In this document: positions 17,038 through 50,101 of the stretch, piece after piece
Position numbering within the stretch: position 1 is the first letter of the stretch
Layout: each line of letters opens with the position of its first letter
From: an uncultured Lachnospiraceae bacterium
Lineage (GTDB): Bacteria; Bacillota; Clostridia; Lachnospirales; Lachnospiraceae
Assembly: GCA_947363565.1 (NCBI GenBank)
Contig: CANAPP010000002.1
Span: forward strand, 61,523-125,522
Length of the DNA stretch: 64,000 nucleotides
Direction of reading: 5' to 3'
The notes under the pieces: model-generated
Databases searched by the model: none
What the model saw: only the letters and a program-made list of their open reading frames with translations
What the model was told of the DNA's origin: nothing
Program-made: the position numbers and the translations under genes

Positions 17038-17072
17038 TCGACAGGCAACGAGCCGGTCAATAAAAAGACGGT

Positions 17073-17171
17073 GAGGGTGTTGCAAAATGCAGAATTCCCG
17101 CAACATATAGCGTCGGCGCTTTAATTCGCTAAGCGATATATTGTGAGGTTCAAACATTATGCAACACCTTC
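17073..17171 (+). repeat. Dispersed ~98-bp palindromic element, copy A (MITE/REP-like)
   Basis: GAGGGTGTTGCA...TGCAACACCTTC; about 96% identical by eye to the reverse complement of 49987-50084. Confidence 0.88.
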
Positions 17172-17197
17172 GCTCATACCATCAAACCTTTCGCATC

Positions 17198-17230
17198 AAA
17201 AAAACGACCACTGACGGTATGGTCGTTTTT
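17198..17230. terminator. Intrinsic terminator 3' of rpsT
   Basis: AAAAAACGACCA-CTGACGGTA-TGGTCGTTTTT. Confidence 0.85.
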
Positions 17231-17257
17231 GCCTGTTTCACATCTCTTCTATCTTAA

Positions 17258-49946: not shown

Positions 49947-49986
49947 GGCGAAAAACAGGAAAAAGAAAATATTCCTCAGGAAAAGA

Positions 49987-50084
49987 GGGTGTTGCATAAT
50001 GTCGAAACCTCACAATATATCGCTTAGCGAATTAAAGCGCCGACGCTATATGTTGCGGGAATTCTGCATTTTGCAACACCCTCT
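49987..50084 (-). repeat. Dispersed ~98-bp palindromic element, copy B (MITE/REP-like)
   Basis: AAAGAGGGTGTTGCA...TGCAACACCCTCTTT 15-bp perfect inverted ends; reverse complement matches copy A with about 4 differences. Confidence 0.88.
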
Positions 50085-50101
50085 TTAGGTCCGGGCCTAG
50101 T

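Follow-up and report, generated by a model that had tools for sequence, protein, structure and literature searches.

The window analysed here, a stretch of 64,000 nucleotides from an uncultured Lachnospiraceae bacterium, contains two full copies of a palindromic element, 33 kb apart and in opposite orientations (Table 1), as an earlier note on this DNA had described. Copy A lies between the convergent genes ilvC (plus strand) and rpsT (minus strand), and Pfam confirmed both gene identities on which the earlier placement relied. Copy B is also located between convergent genes, a plus-strand ORF of 74 aa whose stop codon is 38 bp away and a minus-strand gene encoding an FtsX-domain permease whose stop is 18 bp away. 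After reverse-complementing copy B, 95 of 99 bases were identical and the longest exact run was 78 bases, very close to the previous estimate of about 94 of 98 with a 77-base run. The terminal inverted repeats and internal dyad reported previously were also recovered: the 12-bp ends of copy B are inverted repeats without a mismatch, those of copy A have one, the inner motif CAACATATAG of copy A is mirrored on its other arm as CGATATATTG, and the element forms a nested palindrome over its full length. Copy A folded over its whole length as a single nested hairpin of −42.8 kcal/mol, versus −23.8 ± 3.2 for shuffled sequences (z = −5.9 for the plus strand, −5.5 for the minus strand). The AAAA-stem-TTT arrangement of copy B is the layout of a predicted bidirectional terminator. 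For copy A, no clear U-tract was seen on the ilvC side, and a U-tract was present only on the minus strand.

Table 1. Features of the palindromic element in the window and a short derivative elsewhere in the host assembly.
Feature	Position	Strand	Remark
Copy A, full 99-bp element	17073..17171	+	35 bp past ilvC stop, 86 bp from rpsT stop
Copy A left terminal repeat, GAGGGTGTTGCAAAAT	17073..17088	+	
Copy A right terminal repeat, GAAGGTGTTGCATAAT (read outside-in)	17156..17171	-	1 mismatch among first 12 bases
Copy A inner conserved motif, CAACATATAG	17101..17110	+	exactly 12 nt inward of terminal repeat
Copy A flank, AAAAAGACGGT	17062..17072	+	resembles left arm of the ilvC terminator of congener G002 (AAAAAGCCGGT...)
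Copy B, full 99-bp element	49985..50083	-	between convergent genes
AAAA flank of copy B	49981..49984	+	
TTT flank of copy B	50084..50086	+	
Mini-hairpin	L008 1483-1524 (G000:C45)		42 bp

Seven full copies, with 79-100% identity to copy A, were found in the host assembly (3.26 Mb, 102 contigs), and further members in other Lachnospiraceae; the earlier proviso that only two copies might exist genome-wide, with none in relatives, does not hold. Base changes at the ends are paired on both sides: copies C4 and C7 carry GTGCTGCA at both ends, where the other copies carry GTGTTGCA. The host also contains a short derivative with the same ends, the mini-hairpin GAGGATGCTGCAAATTCTGCATTTTGCAACACCCTC, close to the 3' end of a gene resembling gyrA, and comparable end-only hairpins of 27-65 bp were observed at five loci in other Lachnospiraceae.

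Relatives in other genera were recovered with a covariance model built from the host copies. Members share the architecture of a nested palindrome, 95-99 bp long in most copies, that reads RGGNTGYYGCAAAAT, 12 nt, CAANATATRG, a loop and the mirror image. The arm pattern GGNTGYYGCAAAAT followed by 12 nt and CAANATATRG was present in at least 116 stretches of named GTDB genomes, nearly all of them Lachnospiraceae, including Lachnospiraceae bacterium A2 and MAGs of Dorea, Blautia, and Roseburia. A second covariance model, built on 71 members, gave matches in 45 of 396 Lachnospiraceae genomes versus 2 of 397 others of the phylum (host aside); the ten best candidates per genome were scored, and the copy counts are thus lower bounds. 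Near one match to the arm pattern, a half-element lacking its right arm is located just upstream of the ribosome-binding-site-like sequence AAAGGAGG. The family has been amplified within genomes: inner-sequence identity averaged 0.83 within and 0.65 between genomes, and for 63% of the copies the nearest relative was in the same genome, versus 3% with shuffled labels. Orthologous copies were also present in close species. No match was found in Rfam, either for the window at the gathering cut-off or for three rich loci at E ≤ 1, or in phage and plasmid collections. The open-access literature, searched for the terminal words and for Lachnospiraceae MITEs, and Rfam, the sole sources covered, yielded no earlier description. 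The element is, as far as seen, a small, dispersed, non-autonomous repeat of the Lachnospiraceae without a coding role, and it represents a large family of palindromes in these gut bacteria that was apparently undescribed before.

The copies are located at gene 3' ends. Of 128 classified copies, 57 were between convergent genes and 6 between divergent ones; for 320 background gaps, the corresponding figures were 29 and 83 (Fisher p = 2.5e-16 for the convergent class). Genes for these contexts, and for the mismatch analysis below, were called by a simple ORF script, which will have misjudged some contexts; copy B itself was misclassed because the upstream ORF fell under the script's cut-off. 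Across the family, the flanks were enriched in A on the left and in T on the right over about ten bases. Stem cells were paired in 88.6% of cases (92% in the 16-bp terminal repeats) versus 33-51% when the arms were slid against each other, and the arms covaried, with 161 double-changed cells versus 82 ± 10 in shuffles.

The nature of the remaining mismatches was also analyzed. A G-U pair is tolerated in an RNA hairpin, and the same change reads A-C on the opposite strand. Where both neighbour genes are co-directional, the transcribed strand is known, and on this strand the outer stems of copies between tandem genes contained 82 G-U versus 37 A-C mismatches (element-wise sign-flip p = 0.0003). 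Between convergent genes, no preference was observed (37 G-U versus 39 A-C). The direction agreed in three non-overlapping sets (48:22, 20:8, and 14:7), the first and third chosen by a pattern that fixes one arm and the second located, independently of the arm pattern, via covariance-model hits and end-word matches. The copies thus combine a stable G+C-based hairpin and a U-tract (the family-wide T-rich right flank) with placement at gene 3' ends and pairing kept on the transcribed strand, as in intrinsic terminators. On these several independent lines of sequence evidence, it is well supported that the copies are probable bidirectional intrinsic terminators at gene 3' ends, a likely function that the earlier note had omitted.

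Sites were compared in congeners for three of the seven host copies, namely C2c, copy B, and copy A. BLAST of five congeners returned no copy of the element, which was also not found in two high-quality congeners, versus seven copies in the host. Sites lacking the element, as envisaged in the earlier note, were found for C2c and copy B. At C2c, congener G001 has CAGAACAGATATC-ATGATAAGCCCGTCTTTCGGCGGGCTTACA-GTTCATC where the host has CAGAACAGATATC-CA-[element]-GTTTATC, and other hairpins replace the element in G002, G004, and G005. At the copy B site, G005 has AAAGGCTCTCCTGACAGGAGAGCCTTTTAGG and the host AAAA-[element]-TTTAGG. Gene order differs in the congeners around copy A, and the ilvC terminator of G002 aligns with the left flank in the host. 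Congeners therefore carry what look like ordinary terminator hairpins at or near the sites of copy B and C2c and, in part, of copy A. The terminator hairpin of rpsT (CGACCACTGACGGTATGGTCG, window 17190-17240) was nearly identical in all five congeners, whereas other terminators at the compared loci differ.

The earlier note had likened the element to a MITE or a REP-type repeat. Much of the first comparison stands: the element is short, mostly of fixed length and without a transposase gene, it has terminal inverted repeats whose ends match those of a resident IS1182 (one base different in 16), it is dispersed in seven copies with a lineage-specific spread, and it is absent from the orthologous congener sites C2c and copy B. 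What did not stand was target-site duplication, since direct repeats of at least 4 bp occurred in 9 of 111 cases, not above the 6.7 obtained with shuffled flanks, so that the element answers only in part to the classical description of a MITE. Inverted complementarity between the flanks was slightly raised (3.49 of 8 versus 2.97, sd 0.11), as would be expected of copies located within or next to palindromic terminator sites. The second comparison does not fit in size or arrangement. REP, BIME, and REPIN repeats consist of REP units of 20-40 bp in alternating arrays, with a RAYT tyrosine transposase as partner, and the sampled copies of the element were single nested palindromes of ~97 bp, with no such arrays among them.

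A resident transposase with matching ends, another expectation of the earlier note, was found in the IS1182 family. The host carries a fragment of such a transposase at a contig end, and the host IS1182-family end GAGGGTGTCGCAAAAT, seen as GAGGGTGTCGCAAAATCATC with two different flanks, agrees with the first 16 bases of the element at all but one. The host transposon is broken across contig ends (L029/L038 at the end of contig C33, L015 at the start of C1), so that at least two copies were probably collapsed in the assembly. A complete relative in genome G132, 1859 bp long, carries an NF033551 transposase and has GGGGGCGTTGCAAAAT and GAGGGTGTCGCAAAAT at its ends; the IS1182 copies in that genome showed no evident target-site duplication. 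On C77, an IS1182 remnant with the end GGGGCTGTTGCAAAAG lies beside elements with GGGGCTGTTGCAAAAT; remnant and element have GGGGCTGTTGCAAAA in common, their ends differing at one base in 16. The terminal repeat variant CGGGAAAT is also common to palindromes and IS1182 ends. Several IS1182 copies have A-run and T-run flanks and are mostly located beside gene 3' ends, and most of the IS1182 ends folded form hairpins. At eight Lachnospiraceae loci, the IS1182 ends form terminator-like hairpins with the terminal repeat as the outer arm. Two of these copies, both in G132, have one flank in common and the other different, which points to recombination between IS1182 copies.

The inner motif CAANATATRG was absent from the IS1182 ends examined; the element is thus not a plain internal deletion of any sampled IS. 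No full-length transposon with the inner motif at kilobase spacing was present among the end-word matches listed, or in 20 regions around unpaired end words. Degraded elements, short hairpins, the ends of contigs, chance matches inside genes, and an IS1182 end made up most of these regions. PF13751 was not found in 8 of the 16 element-bearing genomes searched, and broken IS ends hide at the contig edges of drafts. The one PF05598 hit, a fragment on C78, was weak and looked unrelated; it was discarded. The shared termini and shared site preference make a link to IS1182 plausible but leave it unproven.

The explanation that we favour, and consider reasonably probable, is that of a MITE-like element working as a bidirectional intrinsic terminator and probably mobilised by IS1182-type transposases. 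Transcribed from either side, it would fold into a long hairpin, G+C-rich at its base and with a U-rich flank behind it, and would so act as an intrinsic, mostly bidirectional terminator. We infer that the element moves, presumably by an IS1182-family transposase acting on the shared GRGG(N)TGYYGCAAAAT ends, and it may have inserted into or beside existing terminators and then taken over their role. The best-supported reading is a palindromic repeat, mobile now or until recently, that serves as a bidirectional terminator, with mobilisation plausible, if unproven.

If the element were instead a plain MITE without a host function, spread by an IS1182-type transposase and retained at gene 3' ends since insertions elsewhere are harmful, the ends in common with IS1182 and the amplification within genomes would both be expected. 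Purifying selection on insertion sites would also explain intergenic placement, but neither the preference for G-U over A-C between tandem genes only nor the presence of terminator-like hairpins in congeners at the sites compared; we regard this account as unlikely. A vertically inherited family of structured RNAs or terminators, with no current mobility and with gene conversion as the source of likeness within genomes, agrees with the tightly kept length and inner motif, the arm covariation, and the orthologous copies in close species (L099/L101). However, the hairpins at congener sites are unrelated, the copies adjoin unrelated genes, and the contrast between the host and its two high-quality congeners is difficult to reconcile with vertical descent, which makes this origin improbable.

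Two further explanations have very little weight. Inverted pairs of a DNA-uptake word, comparable to the terminators of Neisseria and Haemophilus, are suggested by a single 16-base word that recurs in inverted pairs, the pairs making up terminators, with short hairpins of 27-58 bp among them. Many of the 20 unpaired words inspected had a degraded partner or were at a contig end, though, and unlike uptake sequences the pairs have a spacing fixed near 97 bp and a conserved inner motif; this highly improbable reading was rejected because of the fixed unit length and conserved motif. Spread by a RAYT (Y1 transposase), as for REP, BIME, or REPIN elements, would suit a palindromic, extragenic, dispersed repeat, but hardly appears credible for single nested palindromes of ~97 bp with IS1182-like ends.

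Within the favoured explanation of a MITE-like terminator, a bolder proposal, which we put forward tentatively, is that IS1182-type transposases of Lachnospiraceae target intrinsic terminators and exchange them, an incoming element with terminator hairpins as its own ends replacing the old terminator. Such an exchange would account for three observations: no target duplication is seen, IS1182 copies have A/T flanks like those of the element, and congeners carry terminator-like hairpins at the sites. On this view, the 97-bp palindromes would be terminators that move, spreading while gene ends stay insulated. Bacterial terminators turn over fast between species and the origin of new ones is poorly known; a ready-made two-way terminator repeat tied to a transposon would be a concrete source. 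Whether some insertion elements home to terminators, as places where inserting causes little damage, would also become testable.

Among known systems, the Lachnospiraceae IS1182 elements resemble the palindromes in their near-identical terminal 15-16 bp, A-rich and T-rich flanks, gene 3'-end sites, and mostly hairpin-forming ends; they differ in carrying a transposase, and CAANATATRG was not seen 12 nt inside their ends. The repeat unit of pneumococcus (RUP) is likewise a small intergenic repeat (~107 bp), and its terminal repeats correspond to those of a resident IS, IS630-Spn1 (PMC2229807). RUP has a TA target with target-site duplication, and the review consulted reports no function signature for it (PMC2229807), whereas the element has no such duplication, an IS1182-like partner, a palindrome over its whole length, and a terminator-like character. 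The Correia/NEMIS repeats of Neisseria are also dispersed, hairpin-forming, and MITE-like, with RNA-level effects; TA-flanked, with IHF and RNase III sites, and not described as gene-end terminators (PMC2229807, PMC2649163), they differ in termini and host group. MITEAba12 (~113 bp) shares with the element a fixed length in the ~100-bp class and 16-bp inverted repeats matching a resident IS, here ISAba12 (PMC6382973). It depends on another IS, has 9-bp target-site duplications in 40% of copies, and disrupts genes, and the parts of that report consulted describe no terminator role (PMC6382973). Finally, the inverted DUS/USS pairs of Neisseria and Haemophilus are, like the element, short recurrent words that form intrinsic terminators (PMC2397512). 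There, the words serve in uptake and are closely paired, at most 21 nt apart, whereas the element is a fixed unit of ~97 bp with a conserved inner motif and IS-like ends.
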